Shown here piece after piece: positions 501-10,989 of a stretch of DNA of 64,000 nucleotides (position 1 is its first letter; every line of letters begins with the position of its first letter). Position numbers and translations under genes: made by a program. This DNA comes from an uncultured Massilia sp. GTDB lineage: Bacteria; Pseudomonadota; Gammaproteobacteria; Burkholderiales; Burkholderiaceae_D. A model generated the notes under the pieces. The model was not told where the DNA came from. It searched no databases and worked only from the letters and a program-made list of their open reading frames with translations. The DNA is taken from the NCBI RefSeq assembly GCF_913773735.1, contig NZ_CAJYEB010000049.1, forward strand, positions 62,001-126,000, written 5' to 3'.

Positions 501-556
501 CGCGCCGGCGCATCGCCGTGCTAGCATCCCGTCCATTCGACAACGACGGGGTGCCG

Positions 557-1411
557 ATGCGCGTTCCTCTCCTTTCCTCCCTCGACGCGCTGCTGCTGGA
601 CGCGCGCGCACGTCCGCTGGCCGGCTGGCGCCGGGGGCTGGCGGAATTCCTGATGTTCGGGGTGAAGGAGGCGCGCGCCTGCCTGTTCGCCGGCCTGTTC
701 TTCGGCGCCGTGCTGCTGGTGCCGCGCGCCGGCATCCTCGGGCTGCCGCGCTACGACGCGCTGCTGGCCATCGCGCTGGCGATCCAGGCCTGGATGCTCC
801 GCACGGGCCTGGAAAGCCGCGACGAACTGAAGGCGGTGTGCCTGTTCCACCTGCTCGGCTTCGCGCTGGAGGCGTTCAAGACCTCCAGCGGGATCCGCTC
901 ATGGTCGTATCCCGACTTCGCCTGGACCAAGGTGGCCGGCGTGCCGCTGTTCTCGGGATTCATGTACGCGGCCGTCGGCAGCTACATCATCCAGGCCTGG
1001 CGCCTGCTCGACCTGCGCGTGCGCCATCATCCGCCGCACTGGATGTCGGCCCTGGTGGCGCTGCTGATCTACGCGAATTTCTTCGCCCACCACTGGCTGG
1101 GCGACGCGCGCTGGTACCTGGCGGCCGTGGCGCTCGGCCTGTACGCGCGCACCACGGTGTATTTCCGGCCGCTCGACCGCGAGCGGCGCATGCCGCTGCT
1201 GCTGGGGTTCGTGCTGACCGGGTTCTTCATCTGGCTGGCCGAGAACGTGGGCACGTTCTGGGGACTGTGGCGCTATCCGAACCAGCTGGGCGCGTGGTCG
1301 GCCGTCCACGTGGGCAAGTGGCCGGCCTGGTCGCTACTGGTCGTCATGACCTTCACGATCGTGGCCAACCTCAAGCACCTCAAAGCGAAGATACATGTGC
1401 CAGCGCCGTGA
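557..1411 (+). CDS. DUF817 family integral membrane protein
   Basis: A 284-residue polytopic membrane protein with about eight hydrophobic segments. It carries the signature blocks of the DUF817 family: FGVKEARACLFAGLFF near the N-terminus, GVPLFSGFMYAAVGSYI in the middle, then LLIYANFFAHHW and FIWLAENVGTFWGLWRYP near the C-terminus. The biochemical role of DUF817 is unknown. Many His and Trp residues sit in or next to membrane helices, which could bind a cofactor, but that is inference. I chose the ATG at 557 because it begins the conserved region; an ATG-like start at 518 would add 13 unconserved residues. The gene is monocistronic and its last 32 bases overlap the convergent small gene at 1380-1541. 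Confidence 0.85.
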   Translation: MRVPLLSSLDALLLDARARPLAGWRRGLAEFLMFGVKEARACLFAGLFFGAVLLVPRAGILGLPRYDALLAIALAIQAWMLRTGLESRDELKAVCLFHLLGFALEAFKTSSGIRSWSYPDFAWTKVAGVPLFSGFMYAAVGSYIIQAWRLLDLRVRHHPPHWMSALVALLIYANFFAHHWLGDARWYLAAVALGLYARTTVYFRPLDRERRMPLLLGFVLTGFFIWLAENVGTFWGLWRYPNQLGAWSAVHVGKWPAWSLLVVMTFTIVANLKHLKAKIHVPAP

Positions 1412-1541: not shown

Positions 1542-1777
1542 GGAAATCCTTTCATGTATGGTGAATAATGCAATCATAATACGGGGACGCGAAAACTGGC
1601 GACACGAATGGACGCGCCCCCCGAAGCGGCCGGCTGCACGCCGCGGCGCCCCCTGCACGCCGGGTCCCGTTTGCCGCGCGAAACATCCAGCGTACACCCA
1701 TCGTAAGTACAAATCCATGCGTTAGAATCAATACCTGGAATTCCTTTTTCGTATACGTCTGTTTTTATCCACGCCCC

Positions 1778-4270
<2,493 letters not shown>

Positions 4271-4333: not shown

Positions 4334-4723
4334 CTACCGCGCCGGCTCGGCAGTGACGCCCCGCGCGATCGTGCGCGTCTCGCAGGACTGCGGCCGCAGC
4401 GCCGCCTCGATCAGTTCCAGCGCCAGTCCCGGCCGCGCCGCGCCGCACATGAACACGTCGGCGGCGGCGAAGCCGCTTTCCGGCCAGGTGTGGATCGAGA
4501 TGTGCGATTCGGCCAGCAGCAGCACGCCGGTCACGCCGCCGCCGGCGCCGAAGGTGTGGAAGTGGCCGTGCAGGATGCGCGCGCCCGCCGCCAGCGCGGC
4601 GCGGCGCAGCAGCGCATCGATGGCGGTGGCGTCGCGCAGCAGCGCCGGGTCGACGCCGTGCAGGTCGGCCAGCAGGTGCACCCCGCTGGCGGCGTGCGCG
4701 GTCGCGGCGTCCGCCCCGCTCAC
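4334..4723 (-). CDS. speD: S-adenosylmethionine decarboxylase proenzyme, prokaryotic SpeD/SpeH type
   Basis: A 129-residue protein of the short AdoMetDC class 1B family (usually 115-135 residues). It makes decarboxylated AdoMet, the aminopropyl donor for spermidine synthesis. The self-cleavage and pyruvoyl-forming site is visible as AESHISIHTWPESG, with cleavage expected between Glu72 and Ser73. The His in the HGHFHTFG block before it and the Cys in DVFMCGAA after it match conserved catalytic positions. The start is the GTG at 4723, which overlaps the TGA of the upstream 60-residue gene (GTGA), so translation is coupled. It is the last gene of the DUF350-SPFH-DUF4178-small protein-SpeD operon and faces the divergent aminopropyltransferase gene across that operon. 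That context argues for a dedicated decarboxylase for this locus rather than the housekeeping enzyme. Confidence 0.9.
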   Translation of the reverse strand: MSGADAATAHAASGVHLLADLHGVDPALLRDATAIDALLRRAALAAGARILHGHFHTFGAGGGVTGVLLLAESHISIHTWPESGFAAADVFMCGAARPGLALELIEAALRPQSCETRTIARGVTAEPAR

Positions 4724-4902
4724 TTGTGCCCGCCCCCGCCGGAATACCCGCCGCCAAAGCCGCCGGTGCCCCCGCGCGTGCCCGCCGTCCAGCTGCTGGC
4801 GCCGGAACGCGTCGACGTCGATTCGGACAACATGCTGAACCAGCTGCCGCAGGTGGCGACGATGGTCACGAACAGCGCGTACAGGAAATAACGGTTGTTC
4901 AC
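4720..4902 (-). CDS. Gly-rich single-span membrane peptide, 60 residues, in the polyamine operon
   Basis: The product starts MNNRYFLYALFVTIVATCGSW, a single membrane segment, then has a Ser/Thr-rich linker and ends in FGGGYSGGGGHK. The start is a GTG at 4902 that overlaps the stop of the upstream DUF4178 gene (GTGA), and its own stop overlaps the start of the decarboxylase gene in the same way. This double coupling is the main evidence that it is translated. No domain is recognised. The glycine-rich tail after a membrane anchor suggests a small partner of the DUF4178 or SPFH protein. Its function is unknown. Confidence 0.7.
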   Translation of the reverse strand: MNNRYFLYALFVTIVATCGSWFSMLSESTSTRSGASSWTAGTRGGTGGFGGGYSGGGGHK

Positions 4903-6347
4903 TGGCGGTCCTTCCCGATGAACGAGGGCGGCAGCGCCAGCGCCAGCAGCCCGACCAGCACCCAAGGCGCTGCGCCGCTGAAATGCAGGACCAGCGGCAC
5001 GAGGTTCAGCAGCACCAGCCACAGCAGGAAGCGGCCGGTGCGCGTGACGCGCGCGGGCGCGCCGGCGCCGGTGGCGCCGCCCTGCGCGGCCGGCAGCTTG
5101 AACCACAGGCGCACCTGGTCGTACGCCACCCGGCTCGAGCGCGACCAGGTGAACTCCTCGTCCGACAGCTCGGACGACAGACGGACCGGCCCGTGCTGGT
5201 ATTCCGCCACCCGCACGGTGTCGCCCGCCTGCGCCTTCCAGTAAAACGCACCCAGCACCTGCTCGGTGCGCGCCGGATAGTCGTAGAGTTTGGTGAACGC
5301 CACGCGGTCGTGCCGCACGGCCACCGCGCCCGCCTCGGCCGGCCACTCGTCCATGCCCTCGGCACGCCACCACTCGCCGTCGCTCTCGATCAGCCAGGAA
5401 AAGCCGGCGCGCCCGCCGCCGTGCAGCAGGTATTCGGTCCAGCGGTTGCCCTCGTCGTCGGCGCGCACCAGCGCGCCCAGCACGCGCGTCTCGCGGCCGT
5501 TGACCTGGCCGGTGCTGCCCAGCGGCAGCGTGAGCGGCGTGCGCCCGGCTTCCTCGCCCTTGGCCAGCACCTGCACGACGGGCGTGGCGGCGTCCAGCTG
5601 CGCGCGGCAGGCCTGGCACACCAGGCTGGCGGTGATGCCCGGCAGGTAGGCAATGGCCGTGCCGCACTGCGGGCAGGACAGCGATTCGACGCGGCCGCGG
5701 TACTTGCCGGCGCTGGCCTTGATCGCCTCGTCGTCGCGCAGCAGCTGGCAGCCCATCTGTTCGAGCGTGACGGCGGCGCCGGCGTACAGCGCGGGACGGT
5801 CGCCGTCGGAATAGTCGAGCGTGACGAAGTCCGAGCCGCGCCGGAAGTCGGCCACGCGCGCCTCCCAGCCCGCGCCGACGCGAAACGGCAGCTCGCCCTG
5901 GCCGGCGATGCAGCGCGCGCTGCGCCGCTCGGCCGCGATGTAGCGGCCGGCGCCGGTCTCCATCTCGCGGCCCGGCTGGATCGCCTCGAACACCGGCCAG
6001 CCCACTTCCAGCGCGCGTTGCAAGGTGATGACGTAGCGTCCGGCCGAATCGCCCAGCCAGCCGTTGCCGCCGTCGCCGAACAGCAGGTACCACTCGTTCC
6101 AGATGCCGCCCGACCAGCGCAGCTGGATGCGTCCGACCACGGTGAACGCGCGCTCGCCGTACCTGCCCGACGTGCCGATCTGGATCGGGGAATAATCCTC
6201 CAGCACGGCCGCCATCTTGCCGAGGTCGCGCACCGCGTCGGCGTCCTTGACGACCACGGTGCGGCAGAAATCGCACACGGCCATCACGGACGCGTGCGAC
6301 TTGAACTCGAGCGGCGCCCCGCAGCCGGGGCAGGAAACTGTCTGCAT
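4899..6347 (-). CDS. Zinc-ribbon protein with two DUF4178 domains and a C-terminal membrane hairpin
   Basis: A 482-residue protein. It starts with a zinc ribbon (CPGC then CDFC), followed by a first DUF4178 domain (PIQIGTSGRYGERAFTVVGR and WNEWYLLFGDG). A second zinc ribbon (CPQC then CQAC, around residue 220) leads into a second DUF4178 domain (LPLGSTGQVNGRETRVLGAL and WTEYLLH). The last 60 residues hold two hydrophobic helices. DUF4178 has no established activity; it is known to occur near DUF350, PspA or SPFH proteins and polyamine genes. The product is most likely a membrane-anchored cytosolic scaffold. The ATG at 6347 lies ten bases after the SPFH gene and the stop overlaps the next GTG start, so it sits in the middle of a compact operon. 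Confidence 0.8.
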   Translation of the reverse strand: MQTVSCPGCGAPLEFKSHASVMAVCDFCRTVVVKDADAVRDLGKMAAVLEDYSPIQIGTSGRYGERAFTVVGRIQLRWSGGIWNEWYLLFGDGGNGWLGDSAGRYVITLQRALEVGWPVFEAIQPGREMETGAGRYIAAERRSARCIAGQGELPFRVGAGWEARVADFRRGSDFVTLDYSDGDRPALYAGAAVTLEQMGCQLLRDDEAIKASAGKYRGRVESLSCPQCGTAIAYLPGITASLVCQACRAQLDAATPVVQVLAKGEEAGRTPLTLPLGSTGQVNGRETRVLGALVRADDEGNRWTEYLLHGGGRAGFSWLIESDGEWWRAEGMDEWPAEAGAVAVRHDRVAFTKLYDYPARTEQVLGAFYWKAQAGDTVRVAEYQHGPVRLSSELSDEEFTWSRSSRVAYDQVRLWFKLPAAQGGATGAGAPARVTRTGRFLLWLVLLNLVPLVLHFSGAAPWVLVGLLALALPPSFIGKDRQ

Positions 6348-6357
6348 GCGTTGCCGT

Positions 6358-7389
6358 CTAGCCGATCAGTTTCTTGAGCAGCTCGGCCTTGGCGCCGTCG
6401 TAGTCGGCCTGCGAGATCAGGCCCTTGTCGAGCAGTCCCTTGAGCTTGGCCAGGCGCTCCTCCACCGGCTCGGCGGCGGGCGCGGCCTGGGGGGTGGCGA
6501 CCTGCTGCGGCGCGAACGCCCCGCCCAGTCCCTGGGCCATGGCCTGGCCGATGGTCGCGCCGGCGCCCAGGCCCGCGCCGATGCCGGCCAGGCCGCCCTC
6601 GTTCTGCGCCGCCAGCGGGATGCTGGACGCGGCCTGGAAGCGGGTGTAGCCGGTCATCTTGTCGCTCGACAGCGACCCCTTCATGCCGGCCGAGATGCGT
6701 TCGTCCAGCGCGGCCTGCAGTTCTTCCGGCAGGCTGACGCTGGCCACGTTGAACTGGTCCAGTTCGATGCCGTAGCGGGCGAACGCCACGCTCAGGTCCT
6801 TGCCGACCTGCTGCGCCATCAGGCCCTGGTTGGCGGCCATGTCGAGGAAGGCCACGTTGGCGCCGCCCAGCGAACTGGCCATCGTGGCCAGCATGATGCC
6901 GCGCAGCTGGTCCTCGACCTCGTCGCGGGTGTACACGTCGCGCGTGCCGCTGATGGCGGTGAAGAAGGCGCGCGGATCGGCCACGCGGTACGAGTACATG
7001 CCGAAGGCGCGCACGCGGATCATGTCGAAGTCCTTGTCGCGGATCGTGATCGGCTGCGGCGTGCCCCATTTGCGGCCGGTCTGCACGCGCGTGCTGAAGA
7101 AATACACGTCCGACTTGAACGGCGAATCGAACAGCTTGTCCCAGTTCTTCAGGTTGGTCAGCACCGGCAGCGTGCGCGTGGTCAAGGTGTGGGTGCCGGG
7201 GCCGAACACGTCGGCGATCGTGCCTTCGTTGACGAACACGGCGACCTGCGACTCGCGCACGACCAGCTGGCCGCCGTTCTGGATCTCGAAATCCTGCATC
7301 GGGAAGCGCCAGGCGATCACGCCCTCGCTGTCCTCGTTCCACTGGATGACGTCGATGAACTGCTTCTTGATGAACGAACCGAGGGACAT
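6358..7389 (-). CDS. SPFH (band-7/flotillin-like) protein with C-terminal SHOCT domain
   Basis: A 343-residue protein. The N-terminal MSLGSFIKKQFIDVIQW and LVVRESQVAVFVNEG are typical of the cytosolic SPFH subfamily often labelled virion-core-like. The SPFH core runs to about residue 220, followed by a Gly/Ala-rich linker and a SHOCT domain (VEERLAKLKGLLDKGLISQA) over the last 35 residues. SPFH proteins oligomerise on membranes and organise microdomains; SHOCT is a short oligomerisation module. There is no N-terminal membrane helix, so contact with the membrane probably goes through DUF350 or DUF4178 partners. I chose the ATG at 7389 because AAAGGAG lies six bases upstream of it, rather than an in-frame ATG seven codons earlier. 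The DUF350 gene is 31 bases upstream and DUF4178 ten bases downstream. Confidence 0.85.
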   Translation of the reverse strand: MSLGSFIKKQFIDVIQWNEDSEGVIAWRFPMQDFEIQNGGQLVVRESQVAVFVNEGTIADVFGPGTHTLTTRTLPVLTNLKNWDKLFDSPFKSDVYFFSTRVQTGRKWGTPQPITIRDKDFDMIRVRAFGMYSYRVADPRAFFTAISGTRDVYTRDEVEDQLRGIMLATMASSLGGANVAFLDMAANQGLMAQQVGKDLSVAFARYGIELDQFNVASVSLPEELQAALDERISAGMKGSLSSDKMTGYTRFQAASSIPLAAQNEGGLAGIGAGLGAGATIGQAMAQGLGGAFAPQQVATPQAAPAAEPVEERLAKLKGLLDKGLISQADYDGAKAELLKKLIG

Positions 7390-7420
7390 GGCAGGCTCCT
7401 TTGCGGGCAATGGGGATGGT

Positions 7421-7807
7421 TCAGGAAATGCAGCCGGCGTTGACCAGGCCGATCGACAGCGAGATGGCGCCCAGCAGGCCGCCGAACGCGCAGTTGTCCG
7501 CCTCGATCTGGTCGCGCGCCATGCGCAGCAGGCGCGTCGCCACGACCCACACCACCAGCTGCACCAGCGCCGCGCCGGCGGCCCAGCCGGCGAACTCGAC
7601 GTAGTCCGCCGTATGCATCAGGCTCGACGCGATGGTGGCCGAGAAGCCGATCAGGCTGCCGCCCAGCGACAGCGCGGCCGCGCCGTTGCCCGCGCGGATC
7701 AGCGCGACCTCGTCGTACGGCGTGACCCGGGTGTACACGACAAAAAACGCCAAAACCAGCGCGGCAGCCGTCAATAGATGCAGCAGATAGTTTAGGATGG
7801 CGGGCAC
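7421..7807 (-). CDS. DUF350 (YjfL-like) membrane protein, first gene of the operon
   Basis: A 128-residue protein with four hydrophobic segments, including an early YLLHLLTAAALVLAFFVVY, the DEVALIRAGNGAAALSLGGSLIGF block and a closing GGLLGAISLSIGLVNAGCIS. These are the features of DUF350, the family of E. coli YjfL. Its function is unknown; members sit with PspA-like, SPFH, DUF4178 or polyamine genes. I start it at the GTG at 7807 because a GGAG sequence lies six bases upstream; a TTG at 7831 would add eight residues. It is transcribed divergently from the aminopropyltransferase gene, with only 60 bases between the two starts, so both operons probably share one control region. Confidence 0.8.
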   Translation of the reverse strand: MPAILNYLLHLLTAAALVLAFFVVYTRVTPYDEVALIRAGNGAAALSLGGSLIGFSATIASSLMHTADYVEFAGWAAGAALVQLVVWVVATRLLRMARDQIEADNCAFGGLLGAISLSIGLVNAGCIS

Positions 7808-7867
7808 GAAATTCTCCGAAGAAATGGCCAAGATGTTATCACCCGCATCTTAGAACAAAAACACCGA

Positions 7868-9379
7868 ATGACCAAAAAAATCCTGATCCTGTCGGTTTTC
7901 GTCGTGGCGTCCTGCGGGCTGGCCTACGAACTGATCGCCGGCGCCCTGTCCAGCTACCTGCTGGGCGACTCCATCCTGCAATTCTCGACCATCATCGGAT
8001 GCTACCTGTTCGCCATGGGCGTGGGCGCGCACCTGTCGAAGTACGTGGCCGACGCCGACGTGCTGGAGCGCTTCATCGACATCGAGCTGGCCGTGGGCCT
8101 GATCGGCGGCGTCTCGGCCGCGCTGCTGTTCATGACCTTCTCGTGGATGACGGCGCCGTTCCGCACGCTGCTGTACGTGCTGGTGTTCCTGATCGGCGCG
8201 CTGGTCGGCATGGAGGTGCCGCTGGTGATGCGCGCGCTGAACGCGCGCCAGACCGCGTTCAACGAACTGGTGAGCCGCGTGCTGACCTTCGACTACCTGG
8301 GCGCGCTGGCCGTCTCGCTGCTGTTCCCGCTGGTGCTGGCGCCCTACCTGGGCCTGGTGCGCACCGGTTTCCTGTTCGGCATGCTCAACGTCGGCGTGGC
8401 CTGCTGGACCCTGTACGTGTTCCGGCGCGAGCTGGTGCACCTGGCCGGGCGGGCCATGCGCGCCGGCGCCGTGCTGGTGCTGCTGGTGGCGGGATTCGGC
8501 CTGTCGGACCGGATGGTCGACTGGGGCGAGCACGGCCTGTTCGGCGACGAGGTCGTGTGGTCGTCCAGCACGCCCTACCAGCGCCTGGTCGTCACGCGCT
8601 GGAAGGACGACCTGCGCCTGTACATCAACGGCAACCTGCAATTCTCCTCGCGCGACGAGTACCGCTACCACGAGGCCCTGGTGCACCCGGTCATGGCCGC
8701 CCTGCCCTGGGCCAGGAACGTGCTGGTGCTGGGCGGCGGCGACGGCCTGGCGCTGCGCGAGATCCTGCGCTACCCGAACGTGCGGCACGTCACGCTGGTC
8801 GACCTCGACCCCGCCATGACCGGCGCCTTCACGCGCCGCGCCGAACTGGCCGCGCTGAACCACCATGCCTTCTCGGACCCGCGCGTGAAGGTCGTGAACG
8901 CGGACGCCGCGGTCTGGCTGCAGCAGAATCGCGAGGTGTTCGACGCCGCCATCGTCGACTTCCCCGACCCGTCCAGCTTCGCGCTCGGCAAGCTGTATTC
9001 GGTGCCGTTCTACGGCATCCTGGCGCGCCACGTGGCCGAGCACGGACTCATGGTCGTGCAATCGACCTCGCCGTTCTTCGCGCCGCACGCCTACTGGACC
9101 ATCGACGCCACGCTGCGCGACGTCGGCCTGCACACCTGGCCCTACCACGCCTACGTGCCCTCGTTCGGCGAATGGGGCTTCATCCTGGCATCAAAGAGCC
9201 CCGGCTACGTGCCGCCGGCCGGCTACGCGCTGCCGATGCGCTGGCTGGACGCCGACACGACCCGCGCGATGTTCGCCTTCCCGCCCGACATGCGGCGCCT
9301 CGAGATGGCGCCCAACCGCCTGAACACGCAATCGCTGGTGCGCGAGTTCGAGCACGACTGGCGCCAGGTGATCCGCTGA
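7868..9379 (+). CDS. Membrane-embedded polyamine aminopropyltransferase (SpeE-like)
   Basis: A 503-residue protein. The N-terminal 210 residues form about seven membrane helices, and the C-terminal half is a spermidine synthase fold. Visible catalytic features are STPYQRLVVT (polyamine pocket Tyr-Gln), YRYHEALVHPVM, the nucleotide-binding loop GGGDG at residues 289-293, LVDLDPAM for the ribose of decarboxylated AdoMet, and AAIVDFPDPSS, in which both Asp of the D-x-x-D catalytic pair are kept. It should therefore transfer aminopropyl groups at the membrane; the acceptor cannot be read from sequence. Soluble SpeE proteins are about 290 residues long, so the membrane domain is an addition. It is translated from the ATG at 7868 and coupled by ATGA to the FAD gene. 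The decarboxylase that makes its donor is encoded in the divergent operon. Confidence 0.88.
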   Translation: MTKKILILSVFVVASCGLAYELIAGALSSYLLGDSILQFSTIIGCYLFAMGVGAHLSKYVADADVLERFIDIELAVGLIGGVSAALLFMTFSWMTAPFRTLLYVLVFLIGALVGMEVPLVMRALNARQTAFNELVSRVLTFDYLGALAVSLLFPLVLAPYLGLVRTGFLFGMLNVGVACWTLYVFRRELVHLAGRAMRAGAVLVLLVAGFGLSDRMVDWGEHGLFGDEVVWSSSTPYQRLVVTRWKDDLRLYINGNLQFSSRDEYRYHEALVHPVMAALPWARNVLVLGGGDGLALREILRYPNVRHVTLVDLDPAMTGAFTRRAELAALNHHAFSDPRVKVVNADAAVWLQQNREVFDAAIVDFPDPSSFALGKLYSVPFYGILARHVAEHGLMVVQSTSPFFAPHAYWTIDATLRDVGLHTWPYHAYVPSFGEWGFILASKSPGYVPPAGYALPMRWLDADTTRAMFAFPPDMRRLEMAPNRLNTQSLVREFEHDWRQVIR

Positions 9380-10989
9380 TGGACCGCCGCAGCTTCCTCC
9401 TGCATGCCGGCGGCGCCGGGGCCGCGCTGGCGGCCAGCGCGGCCGGCTATGCGCGCTGGCAGGAGATCGCCCCCGAGGTGCACTATCCGGGCCGCCTGGA
9501 AGGCCACTACCTGCGCGACCGCCGCGCGCTGCCGCCGCCGTCGCGGGTGCTGGAGACCGACGTCGCCATCCTCGGCTCGGGCATCGCGGGCCTGTCGGCC
9601 GCCTGGCAGCTGCGGCGCGCCGGCCACGCGCGCTTCCTGATGGTGGACGGGCCGCAAGCCTTCGGCAACGCGGCCGGCGCGCGCTTCGGCGAACTGGCCT
9701 GCCCGACGGGCGCCCACTACCTGCCGCTGCCGTCGCCGGAATCGGTGCACGTGCGCGAGATCCTGCTCGACCTGGGCATCGTCGAGCGCGACGCGTTCGG
9801 CGCGCAGCCGACCTACGACGAGCGCGCGATCCTGCACGCGCCGGAGGAGCGCCTGCTGTTCAACGGCGCCTGGCAGGACGGCTTCCTGCCGGTCGAGGGC
9901 GTGGCCGCCTGGGAACTGGCCGAGCACCGGCGCTTCTTCGCCCAGGTGGAAACCCTGCGCGCCGCGCGCGGCGCCGACGGCCGGCGCGCCTTCGTGTTCC
10001 CGACCGTGCTGTCCTCGCGCGATCCGCGCTGGGACGACCTCGACCGCATCACGTTGAAGGCGTGGATGGAACGCGAAGGCTATCGCGCGCCGACGCTGCA
10101 CTGGTACCTGAACTACTGCTGCCGCGACGACTACGGCACCCGCTACGACAAGGTCTCGGCCTGGGCCGGCCTGCACTACTACTGCAGCCGCTGGGGCCAG
10201 GCCGCCAACGCCGGCAACGGCGCCTGGCTGACCTGGCCCGGCGGCCTGGCGCCGCTGGCCGAACGCCTGGCCGCGCGCGCCGCGGTGCCGCGCCACGCCG
10301 GCACCGTGGCGTCGGTGCGCAGGACGGCCGGCGGCGTGGAGGCGCTGTGCTTCGCGCTGGACGGTGCCACGCCGCGCACCTACCTGGTGCGGGCCCGCAA
10401 GGCCATCGTCGCCATGCCGGTCTACGTGGCCGCGCGCGTGGTCGAGGACATCGCGGCGCTCGGCTTCGACGCGCGCCGCCACACGCCGGCCTACGCCCCA
10501 TGGCTGGTGGCGAACTTCCTGATGAAGGCATTCCCGCGCGAGCTGCCGCACGCCCCGCTGTCGTGGGACAACGTCGTGTATGGCGAGCCGGGGCTCGGCT
10601 ACGTCGTCTCCACGCACCAGGACATCCGCGTGGCGCCGCCGGACAAGACGGTGTTCACGGCCTACGTCGCGCTGTCGGACCGCACGCCGCGCCAGGCGCG
10701 CGACTGGATGATGAAGGCGACGCCGGCCGCGCTGGTGGACCTCGCCGCGCGCGACCTGCGCGCGGCCTACGGCTGGACCTTCGCGCCCTGCGTCGAGCGC
10801 GTCGACATCACCCTGCGCGGCCACGCGATGGCGGCGCCGCTGCCGGGCTTTCGCAGCAACGCCGGGCTGGCCGCGCTGCGCGAGGCCGACGGGCCGGTCC
10901 TGTTCGCGCATGCGGACCTGTCGGGGTTCTCGGTGTTCGAGGAGGCGGCGTGGTGGGGCATACAGGCGGCGCGCAAGGCGCTGGGGTGA
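9379..10989 (+). CDS. Tat-exported FAD-dependent amine-oxidase-like protein
   Basis: A 536-residue flavoprotein. It begins MDRRSFLLHAGGAGAALAAS, a twin-arginine signal, so the folded enzyme should be exported. The dinucleotide-binding motif GSGIAG (residues 66-71) follows DVAIL and is part of the NAD(P)-binding Rossmann domain of the amine oxidase and phytoene desaturase superfamily. The C-terminal FAHADLSGFSVFEEAAWWG is the usual FAD-contacting end. The start codon overlaps the stop of the aminopropyltransferase gene (ATGA). Its place in a polyamine operon suggests that it oxidises a polyamine or a polyamine-modified product on the periplasmic side. The substrate is inference; no known specific polyamine oxidase signature stands out. 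Confidence 0.8.
   Translation: MDRRSFLLHAGGAGAALAASAAGYARWQEIAPEVHYPGRLEGHYLRDRRALPPPSRVLETDVAILGSGIAGLSAAWQLRRAGHARFLMVDGPQAFGNAAGARFGELACPTGAHYLPLPSPESVHVREILLDLGIVERDAFGAQPTYDERAILHAPEERLLFNGAWQDGFLPVEGVAAWELAEHRRFFAQVETLRAARGADGRRAFVFPTVLSSRDPRWDDLDRITLKAWMEREGYRAPTLHWYLNYCCRDDYGTRYDKVSAWAGLHYYCSRWGQAANAGNGAWLTWPGGLAPLAERLAARAAVPRHAGTVASVRRTAGGVEALCFALDGATPRTYLVRARKAIVAMPVYVAARVVEDIAALGFDARRHTPAYAPWLVANFLMKAFPRELPHAPLSWDNVVYGEPGLGYVVSTHQDIRVAPPDKTVFTAYVALSDRTPRQARDWMMKATPAALVDLAARDLRAAYGWTFAPCVERVDITLRGHAMAAPLPGFRSNAGLAALREADGPVLFAHADLSGFSVFEEAAWWGIQAARKALG

Follow-up and report, generated by a model that had tools for sequence, protein, structure and literature searches.

A membrane-fused aminopropyltransferase and a Tat-signal flavoenzyme at one locus of an uncultured Massilia: a candidate envelope module

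Genes of the locus

The window studied here, i.e. the whole stretch of 64,000 nt that was analysed, belongs to an uncultured Massilia sp. (assembly GCF_913773735.1, contig NZ_CAJYEB010000049.1, positions 62,001-126,000) and harbours, at positions 4334-10989, two divergent sets of genes. The minus-strand set comprises speD, a 60-codon gene and the genes of a DUF4178, an SPFH-SHOCT and a DUF350 protein; the plus-strand set consists of a membrane aminopropyltransferase (SYN) and a Tat-signal enzyme that has the fold of flavin amine oxidases (Table 1). All genes named in an earlier, sequence-only reading of this DNA were confirmed by Pfam and NCBIfam, but the 60-codon gene had been overlooked. Clusters of this kind are found in records of several phyla and have already been noticed by others.

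Table 1. Features of the locus, in positions of the window
Feature	Positions	Strand	Remarks
speD, S-adenosylmethionine decarboxylase	4334..4723	-	PF02675 (AdoMet_dc) 117.7 bits, cut-off 25
60-codon gene	4720..4902	-	4-base overlap with each neighbour; tail rich in Gly/Ser, with GGGHK at its end
DUF4178 protein	4899..6347	-	PF13785 97.8 bits, in two stretches
SPFH/band-7 protein with C-terminal SHOCT	6358..7389	-	PF13421 (Band_7_1) 250.6 bits
DUF350 membrane protein	7421..7807	-	PF03994 110.9 bits
Intergenic region between divergent genes	7808..7867	.	60 bases
SYN, aminopropyltransferase	7868..9379	+	membrane domain residues 1-211; catalytic domain ~219-503
Flavoprotein, flavin amine oxidase fold, Tat signal	9379..10989	+	PF01593 (Amino_oxidase) 35.8 bits, cut-off 19.8

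SpeD matches the equivalog TIGR03330 (122.8 bits, cut-off 75.65), is the single PF02675 match of its genome and contains ESHISIHTWPE, which we take to be the self-cleavage motif of prokaryotic AdoMet decarboxylase; judged by eye, its sequence bears no export signal. The product of the 60-codon gene has a single hydrophobic segment (residues 7-25 in the hydropathy scan) and matches nothing in Pfam or NCBIfam at 0.1; the gene aligns with 25 other loci. The DUF4178 protein shows zinc-ribbon-like matches below cut-off and ends in a hydrophobic hairpin of two segments (440-458 and 460-478). In the SPFH protein, the SHOCT domain (PF09851) scores 27.1 bits, barely above the cut-off of 27; its start was picked by eye as the ATG of MSLGSF, with a longer TTG frame extending to 7410. 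The DUF350 protein, with four hydrophobic segments, probably starts at GTG 7807 rather than at TTG 7831, where its reading frame first offers a start, since ATG, GTG or TTG stands at the former position in 12/12 aligned sequences (the window and 11 loci). With this start, the shared divergent region has the 60 bases that the sequence-only reading gave it.

The flavoenzyme carries a twin arginine (R3 R4) that is invariant in 32/32 homologues, followed by F6 in at least 90%, and the Tat signal proposed earlier thus stands, though the Pfam TAT_signal model stays below its cut-off (16 bits against 22.7). The modelled structure has a pLDDT of 92.8. The neighbours by fold and profile are mixed (L-amino acid oxidase, protoporphyrinogen oxidase, fatty acid isomerase, putrescine oxidase), so that they do not fix the substrate, a point against the explanation favoured below; a single-sequence search of solved structures returned no match at 0.01.

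Between speD and the 60-codon gene, as between the latter and the DUF4178 gene, 4 bases overlap, and the SYN stop shares 1 base with the flavoenzyme start, an arrangement that would be consistent with co-translation. A scan of the locus for sigma-70 promoters gave none (0.3 in shuffles), and a scan for terminators gave 4 (2.4 in shuffles), numbers that are not informative. None of the seven genes has a Pfam match to PspA or CesT/Tir at 0.1. Among the PADLOC defence models, mad2 partially matches the synthase domain of SYN (54.4 bits) and two models weakly match the flavoenzyme (18.8 and 12.2 bits); the remaining five genes have no match.

Distribution of the gene set

The occurrence of the partner genes was compared between genomes with and without SYN. 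In a sample of 200 genomes of the order, 39 matched SYN at 1e-30; we counted as SYN-positive the 32 in which the match begins at or before query residue 6, leaving out seven in which only the catalytic domain is matched. Genomes G105, which was counted, and G193, which was dropped, hold two SYN matches each. DUF4178 is present in all 32 SYN-positive genomes and in none of the other 168, and the flavoenzyme in 31/32 against 1/168; for its counts in this sample and in that of the phylum, scoring took in the 6 or 7 top first-look candidates of each genome. DUF350 was found in 31/32 against 21/168 (3 of these 21 under the Pfam cut-off), and both it and DUF4178 lie within 15 kb of SYN in 30/32 genomes. 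SpeD likewise occurs in 31/32 SYN-positive genomes, against 38/168 of the others, which bears out the coupling of donor enzyme and membrane transferase put forward in the sequence-only reading. Of the 32 genomes, 19 have SpeD no more than 15 kb from SYN and 12 have it at a greater distance or on a different contig; SYN thus accompanies the donor enzyme even when the genes are apart. Because the sampled genomes are related, Fisher values overstate their independence.

The association is looser in a sample of 239 genomes of the phylum, where every genome that matched at 1e-45 was taken as SYN-positive (27 in total), 10 of them through a match that is partial, late-starting in the query or split. 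SpeD was detected in 22/27 against 33/212, DUF4178 in 17/27 (one under cut-off) against 0/212 and the flavoenzyme in 7/27 against 0/212. SYN thus occurs there without SpeD in 5 genomes, without DUF4178 in 10 and without the flavoenzyme in 20, which weighs against the explanation that we favour below.

Across 80 SYN loci, the neighbours include DUF4178, SPFH and the flavoenzyme (64 each), SpeD (55), DUF350 (52) and the 60-codon gene (26), in a table that used trimmed profiles and in which many contigs end within the cluster. The DUF350 count is too low owing to the loss of half-size forms, and rises to 64 with untrimmed profiles. At some loci SYN stands without any of the six others; two of these, L063 and L074, extend 9 kb on either side. 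Such solitary loci likewise count against our explanation, and outside the order the gene set looks looser. Nevertheless, the 200-genome profile and the 80 loci place co-conservation, the check suggested earlier, well past close relatives.

Acceptor and topology of the synthase

SYN matches Spermine_synth (Pfam) with 122.6 bits, and the AlphaFold2 model of the protein reaches a pLDDT of 88.5. Like canonical spermidine synthase, SYN keeps the catalytic and donor-binding residues checked, which we take to be D292, D314, D346, D364, D367, Y267 and Q238, each conserved in 78/78 homologues, and position 312 (D in 73 of the 78, E in the other 5). By contrast, its acceptor side is unlike that of 14 canonical spermidine synthases of the order: R266 and H427 are each found in 77/78 homologues but in none of the 14, E/D435 in 76/78 and likewise in none, and F433 in 78/78 against 2/14, while Q398 and T400 also differ from most of the 14. 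The residues at 266, 398, 427, 433 and 435 therefore suggest an acceptor that is probably not putrescine.

Ahead of the catalytic domain the model places seven long helices, and the hydropathy scan gives seven segments as well, in agreement with the seven-helix extra domain noted earlier. The charged residues of the membrane domain are conserved. Lysine and arginine are concentrated near the side of the membrane where the N-terminus lies (mean 10.7, against 1.9 on the opposite side), and this bias has the same sign in 59/59 close and 19/19 further homologues. The pattern hints at a cytoplasmic N-terminus; with seven helices, the catalytic domain is then predicted to lie in the periplasm. What is new here is this charge-based topology, which would place the catalytic domain where the flavoenzyme also goes. 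A low cysteine content was considered as a further sign of export: the 59 SYN catalytic domains hold 30/16772 cysteines (0.18%), against 28/3231 in a control set in which a SYN protein is included and one protein enters as two overlapping pieces. We dropped this sign on account of the Tat flavoenzyme (1.11%; 334/30005, after the signal) and SPFH (0.02%; 5/22090). Likewise rejected was an assignment of the membrane domain to the MFS, given no Pfam MFS match at 0.1 and 18.4 bits for MFS_SpdSyn (NCBIfam, cut-off 40); in the fold search of SYN, matches to the catalytic domain filled the list.

We tentatively propose, with a probability of roughly 0.42, that the locus is an envelope module, in which SYN aminopropylates a membrane acceptor outside and the Tat flavoenzyme then oxidises the product. 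SpeD, by its family, would produce decarboxylated AdoMet in the cytoplasm, and SYN would move the aminopropyl group onto a membrane acceptor, to judge from its residues probably one other than putrescine. Donor or acceptor may get to the catalytic domain, predicted on the periplasmic side, via the SYN membrane domain; the exported flavoenzyme could oxidise the product in the periplasm, and DUF350, SPFH-SHOCT and DUF4178 may serve in organising or sensing at the membrane. In favour of this proposal are the profiles of the order and phylum samples, in which the flavoenzyme is all but confined to genomes with SYN, the conserved catalytic and donor-binding residues beside a divergent acceptor side, the charge bias, the hydropathy of segment 7 and the invariant twin arginine. 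The periplasmic placement of the active site, with a cytoplasmic donor decorating an envelope acceptor and the flavoenzyme oxidising the new amine, is an element to which we give somewhat less than even credence. It would be unexpected: we know of no aminopropyltransferase described as working outside the cytoplasm, nor did we recognise an extracytoplasmic one in a literature search. An outside active site also needs export or passage of the donor, which weighs against the proposal.

In a rival arrangement the catalytic domain would be cytoplasmic, either because segment 7 does not cross the membrane or because the charge rule fails; a lipid or soluble amine could then be aminopropylated inside and its product moved out to the flavoenzyme by the SYN membrane domain or DUF350. 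MprF, which couples synthesis and flipping, offers an analogy. Decarboxylated AdoMet is expected inside, given a SpeD devoid of an export signal, none of the seven modelled helices is shorter than helix 7 (192-211), whose hydrophobic part in the window's SYN measures about 15 residues by eye, and DUF350 is a nearly constant companion (31/32). The hydropathy scan additionally marks a segment within the catalytic domain (1.36). Against a cytoplasmic domain speak the uniform sign of the charge bias in 78/78 homologues and the 19-residue mean hydropathy of segment 7, which is 1.76-2.51 in the five further homologues displayed. On balance we regard this arrangement as rather doubtful, yet as a serious competitor.

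Alternatively, SYN could simply be the cell's ordinary spermidine synthase, anchored in the membrane within a housekeeping polyamine operon. It is the sole strong Spermine_synth match of its genome, the three further matches above cut-off scoring 26-32 bits and not being recovered by a profile of the SYN catalytic domain at 1e-5; it adjoins the one SpeD, and no nspC match, as the carboxyspermidine route would imply, was found in the genome. Furthermore, the available part of a report on Massilia antarctica gives some spermidine (0.3, against putrescine at 4.8 umol per g dry weight; PMC9028926). The divergent acceptor-side residues nevertheless make an ordinary synthase unlikely, as does the retention of SYN in 4 of the 12 genomes with a distant SpeD, where SpeD lies beside or is fused to a canonical SpeE. 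The best fold match, moreover, is a triamine/agmatine enzyme, though the gaps in Z among aminopropyltransferases are small, and a membrane fusion of the SYN type reportedly failed to replace SpeE of E. coli in the work of Li et al. of 2019. Finally, a mere sensor, whose synthase domain binds decarboxylated AdoMet or polyamines and reports to an SPFH/DUF4178 assembly without any new product, would suit the non-enzymatic Pfam matches of SPFH-SHOCT, DUF350 and DUF4178, the exact tracking of SYN by DUF4178 in the order and the mention of polyamine monitoring in the available part of PMC11237479, but is very improbable in view of the aspartates 292, 314, 346, 364 and 367 retained in 78/78 homologues and of an exported flavoenzyme, which would be an odd sensor component.

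The envelope module inherits much of the sequence-only reading, in which a polyamine is built and then oxidised at the membrane: donor enzyme, membrane transferase, a second enzyme with an export signal and co-conservation hold. A free polyamine as product, its oxidation by the flavoenzyme and a part in an envelope-stress response are conjectural elements of that reading, and the acceptor side of SYN is unlike that of canonical synthases. By linking SYN to the donor enzyme, the exported flavoenzyme and DUF4178, and by predicting a side of the membrane, the proposal turns a vague association of polyamines and membranes into a testable form. If the active site does lie outside, polyamine-type chemistry would have an overlooked part in bacterial envelopes.

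Comparison with known systems

SYN matches the family NF002956 (PRK03612) over its full length, membrane domain included (682.7 bits, cut-off 472; residues 3-501 on positions 19-521 of the 522-position profile); the family name implies polyamine synthesis, a putative role for SYN. The catalytic fold resembles that of the triamine/agmatine aminopropyltransferase of Thermus thermophilus (1uir, 3anx), with 1uir as the best match, at 30% identity over 274 aligned residues (Z 35.4, rmsd 2.2); unlike SYN, the aligned chain, which is 309 residues long, has no membrane domain. Similarly, the flavoenzyme shares its fold with putrescine oxidase and bacterial monoamine oxidase (2yg3, 8p84; Z ~28, ~420 residues aligned), at 16-22% identity and with matches that start at residue 56 or 57, past the Tat signal.

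In 2019 Li et al. reportedly described AdoMet decarboxylase paired with a membrane/spermidine-synthase-like fusion and DUF350, and are said to have suggested an acceptor other than putrescine; compared with that system, both the Tat flavoenzyme and the topology read from the charges may be new. The sequence-only reading was also right in recalling PspA-linked relatives from comparative genomics: the available part of Ravi et al. 2024 (PMC11237479) describes related operons that are linked to PspA and combine DUF350 and DUF4178 with a spermidine-synthase-like protein fused to a 7TM domain, as well as variants without the CesT/Tir-PspA pair, and speaks of polyamine monitoring while leaving the product unnamed. 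The Massilia locus likewise joins a 7TM synthase, DUF350 and DUF4178. Unlike the PspA-linked operons of that account (PMC11237479), its genes show no PspA or CesT/Tir match, and it unites SPFH-SHOCT, SpeD and the flavoenzyme with the 7TM synthase. Tat export, a predicted synthase topology and the 60-codon gene, all absent from the available part of the account, set the Massilia locus apart.

Organization and conservation of the gene cluster

The aminopropyltransferase with a fused membrane domain (hereafter SYN) and its neighbours form two divergently oriented gene sets, with overlaps of 1 or 4 bases at three gene junctions. GTG 7807 is best read as the start of the DUF350 gene, because this position is occupied by ATG, GTG or TTG in 12 of 12 aligned sequences and conservation drops upstream of it. 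With this start, 60 bases separate the two sets, which agrees with the gap proposed in the sequence-only reading. The 60-codon gene is conserved, aligning with 25 other loci, and encodes one hydrophobic segment followed by a Gly/Ser tail with a GGGHK end, while family matches to it were absent in Pfam and NCBIfam. The genome containing the window measures 5.9 Mb; the nearest named relatives of SYN (records of this same genome possibly being excluded from the comparison) are from Massilia, Duganella and Janthinobacterium, the protein of Massilia sp. Bi118 being 87% identical.

Genes of the two divergent sets, those on the minus strand in their order away from position 7807, and one further gene of the window
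Feature	Position	Strand	Remark
DUF350	7421-7807	-	full four-segment form
SPFH-SHOCT	6358-7389	-	
DUF4178	4899-6347	-	two stretches
60-codon gene	4720-4902	-	
speD	4334-4723	-	
SYN	7868-9379	+	
Flavoenzyme	9379-10989	+	flavoprotein
DUF817 membrane protein	518-1411	+	326 bits

Full-length SYN is found in 32 of the 200 Burkholderiales genomes sampled. DUF4178 is present in all 32 and in none of the other 168, the flavoenzyme in 31 and 1, SpeD in 31 and 38, and DUF350 in 31 and 21 (3 of these 21 under the Pfam cut-off), respectively; Fisher tests on such co-occurrence count related genomes as independent. The sole SYN genome devoid of SpeD, flavoenzyme and DUF350 (G159, ~680 contigs) and the sole flavoenzyme genome devoid of SYN (G195, ~440 contigs) belong to the same genus, and given this fragmentation both exceptions may be assembly gaps. 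In the sample of 239 genomes from the phylum, SpeD accompanies SYN in 22 of 27 genomes (33 of 212 others), DUF4178 in 17, one under the cut-off (missing from 10; 0 of 212 others), and the flavoenzyme, here an optional partner found only with SYN, in 7 (0 of 212 others).

The neighbourhoods of 80 named loci, where many contigs end early, contain SpeD in 55, DUF4178, SPFH and the flavoenzyme in 64 each, and DUF350 in 52 cases. The cluster is not universal, since some loci show SYN without any of the other six genes, L063 and L074 despite 9 kb on each side, L059 and L056 within the DNA available there. Most Burkholderiales records share one gene order, from which those annotated as Acidobacteria, Psychrobacter and others depart. 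At eight loci (L070, L071, L073, L075, L076, L078, L079, L084), from records labelled Acidobacteria, Bryobacterales and Roseisolibacter, two adjacent open reading frames share the DUF4178 matches and speD lies between SPFH and DUF4178. Half-length DUF350 matches (about positions 4-67 of the 133-position model) occur beside SYN in several lineages (G121, G112, G068, G188 and other genomes); the four-segment form could represent two copies of a two-helix unit. At L049, near the SYN cluster, another SYN-like match spans ~755 codons (1777-4041, minus strand).

Donor enzyme and presumed acceptor side of SYN

SpeD is encoded less than 15 kb from SYN in 19 of the 32 genomes and more distantly, or on another contig, in 12; a canonical SpeE is adjacent or fused to the unlinked SpeD in four of the latter (G093, G105, G133, G152) and was not found within the 4.5-5 kb examined around SpeD in the remaining eight. 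SYN thus accompanies the donor enzyme even if unlinked, and persists alongside a canonical synthase. In five genomes (L130, L132, L133, L135, L136) a transketolase-like reading frame was seen by eye near SpeD, with SYN located elsewhere. The window's own genome has a single SpeD, three further weak Spermine_synth matches above the cut-off (26-32 bits) and no match to nspC. For Massilia antarctica, the excerpted text of PMC9028926 gives putrescine, 2-hydroxyputrescine, spermidine and cadaverine at 4.8, 0.5, 0.3 and 0.1 umol per g dry weight.

The AlphaFold2 model of SYN (pLDDT 88.5, pTM 0.68) comprises seven long helices, a short helix and an aminopropyltransferase fold. Its best PDB match is the Thermus triamine/agmatine enzyme 1uir (Z 35.4, 274 residues, rmsd 2.2), followed by thermospermine synthase 6bq2 (Z 33.8) and spermidine synthases (Z <=32.5), these differences being modest. 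Fourteen SpeE proteins from this order, all without the membrane domain, share Q238, Y267, H268, D314, D346, D364 and D367 with SYN. By contrast, R266 (77 of 78 SYN homologues vs 0 of 14 SpeE), Q398 (78 vs 2), H427 (77 vs 0), F433 (78 vs 2) and E/D435 (76 vs 0) set SYN apart. We take these five to be acceptor-side positions, 433 presumably corresponding to the putrescine-contacting tyrosine of known structures, and the differences point to an acceptor other than that of canonical SpeE. Such an acceptor would be in line with the study of Li et al. 2019, in which membrane-synthase fusions reportedly fail to replace E. coli SpeE, spermidine is said to be absent, and DUF350 is said to be clustered with the fusions.

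Predicted topology of SYN and export signal of the flavoenzyme

With helix borders guided by the AlphaFold2 model, lysines and arginines were summed for the N-terminal side, made up of the N-terminus and the loops that follow helices 2, 4 and 6, and for the opposite side, made up of the loops that follow helices 1, 3 and 5 plus the residues beyond helix 7. The means are 10.7 vs 1.9 in 59 homologues (alignment A1) and 10.0 vs 2.1 in 19 homologues from the phylum search, and the excess on the N-terminal side holds in 78 of 78, per residue too. Applied to these counts, the positive-inside rule predicts an N-terminus on the inside, which with seven helices would place the catalytic domain outside. 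The weak point of this prediction is helix 7, which is short in the window protein, although its segment is hydrophobic, scoring 1.69 in a hydropathy scan (1.76 to 2.51 in five further homologues); the same scan also flags a catalytic-domain segment of the window protein at 1.36. Rough estimates of insertion energy give 0.7 for helix 7, better than helices 2, 5 and 6 (1.66-1.83). In all 78 homologues the membrane domain retains E21, E116, R122, D142, Y143 and N174, as expected if this domain handled a polar substrate. No paper stating such a topology was recognised in a literature search, most subscription papers, including Li et al. 2019, lying outside its reach.

A twin arginine near the flavoenzyme N-terminus is kept in all 32 homologues compared, with the next 20-30 residues varying freely. 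A looser scan finds a twin arginine in 59 of 59 sequences, although for two of them, L073 and the split-frame L009, it selected a motif other than the one at the gene start. As 14 of the 59 carry a strict lipobox-like motif, the flavoenzyme may be an exported lipoprotein in some species. The flavoenzyme match at L009 (10512-12139) runs over two frames, which may reflect a broken gene or a sequencing error. The fold is of the flavin amine oxidase type, with bacterial monoamine oxidase and putrescine oxidase as top Foldseek matches, L-amino acid oxidase, putrescine oxidase and monoamine oxidase tied at Z ~28 in VIA-align, and mixed nearest PDB sequences by profile, including protoporphyrinogen oxidase and fatty acid isomerase. 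Because these neighbours are mixed, the fold does not fix the substrate.

Relation to described operons

The match to NF002956/PRK03612 spans the entire SYN, membrane domain included (682.7 bits vs a cut-off of 472), which indicates that the fused architecture is already known and named. The excerpted text of Ravi et al. 2024 (PMC11237479), which cites Li et al. 2019, describes operons of a 7TM-fused spermidine-synthase-like protein, DUF350 and DUF4178 that adjoin PspA. The sequence-only reading, in which the locus builds and then oxidises a polyamine that would modify or stabilise the membrane, observed the genes correctly and put forward a reasonable broad idea, for a kind of cluster already described elsewhere. 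Relative to that excerpted text, the main addition of the present analysis is the predicted placement of the SYN catalytic domain on the outside. It further contributes the exact co-occurrence of SYN with DUF4178 across the order sample, the association with SpeD even where the two genes are unlinked, the residues that set the presumed acceptor side apart, the invariance of the Tat signal and the 60-codon gene.
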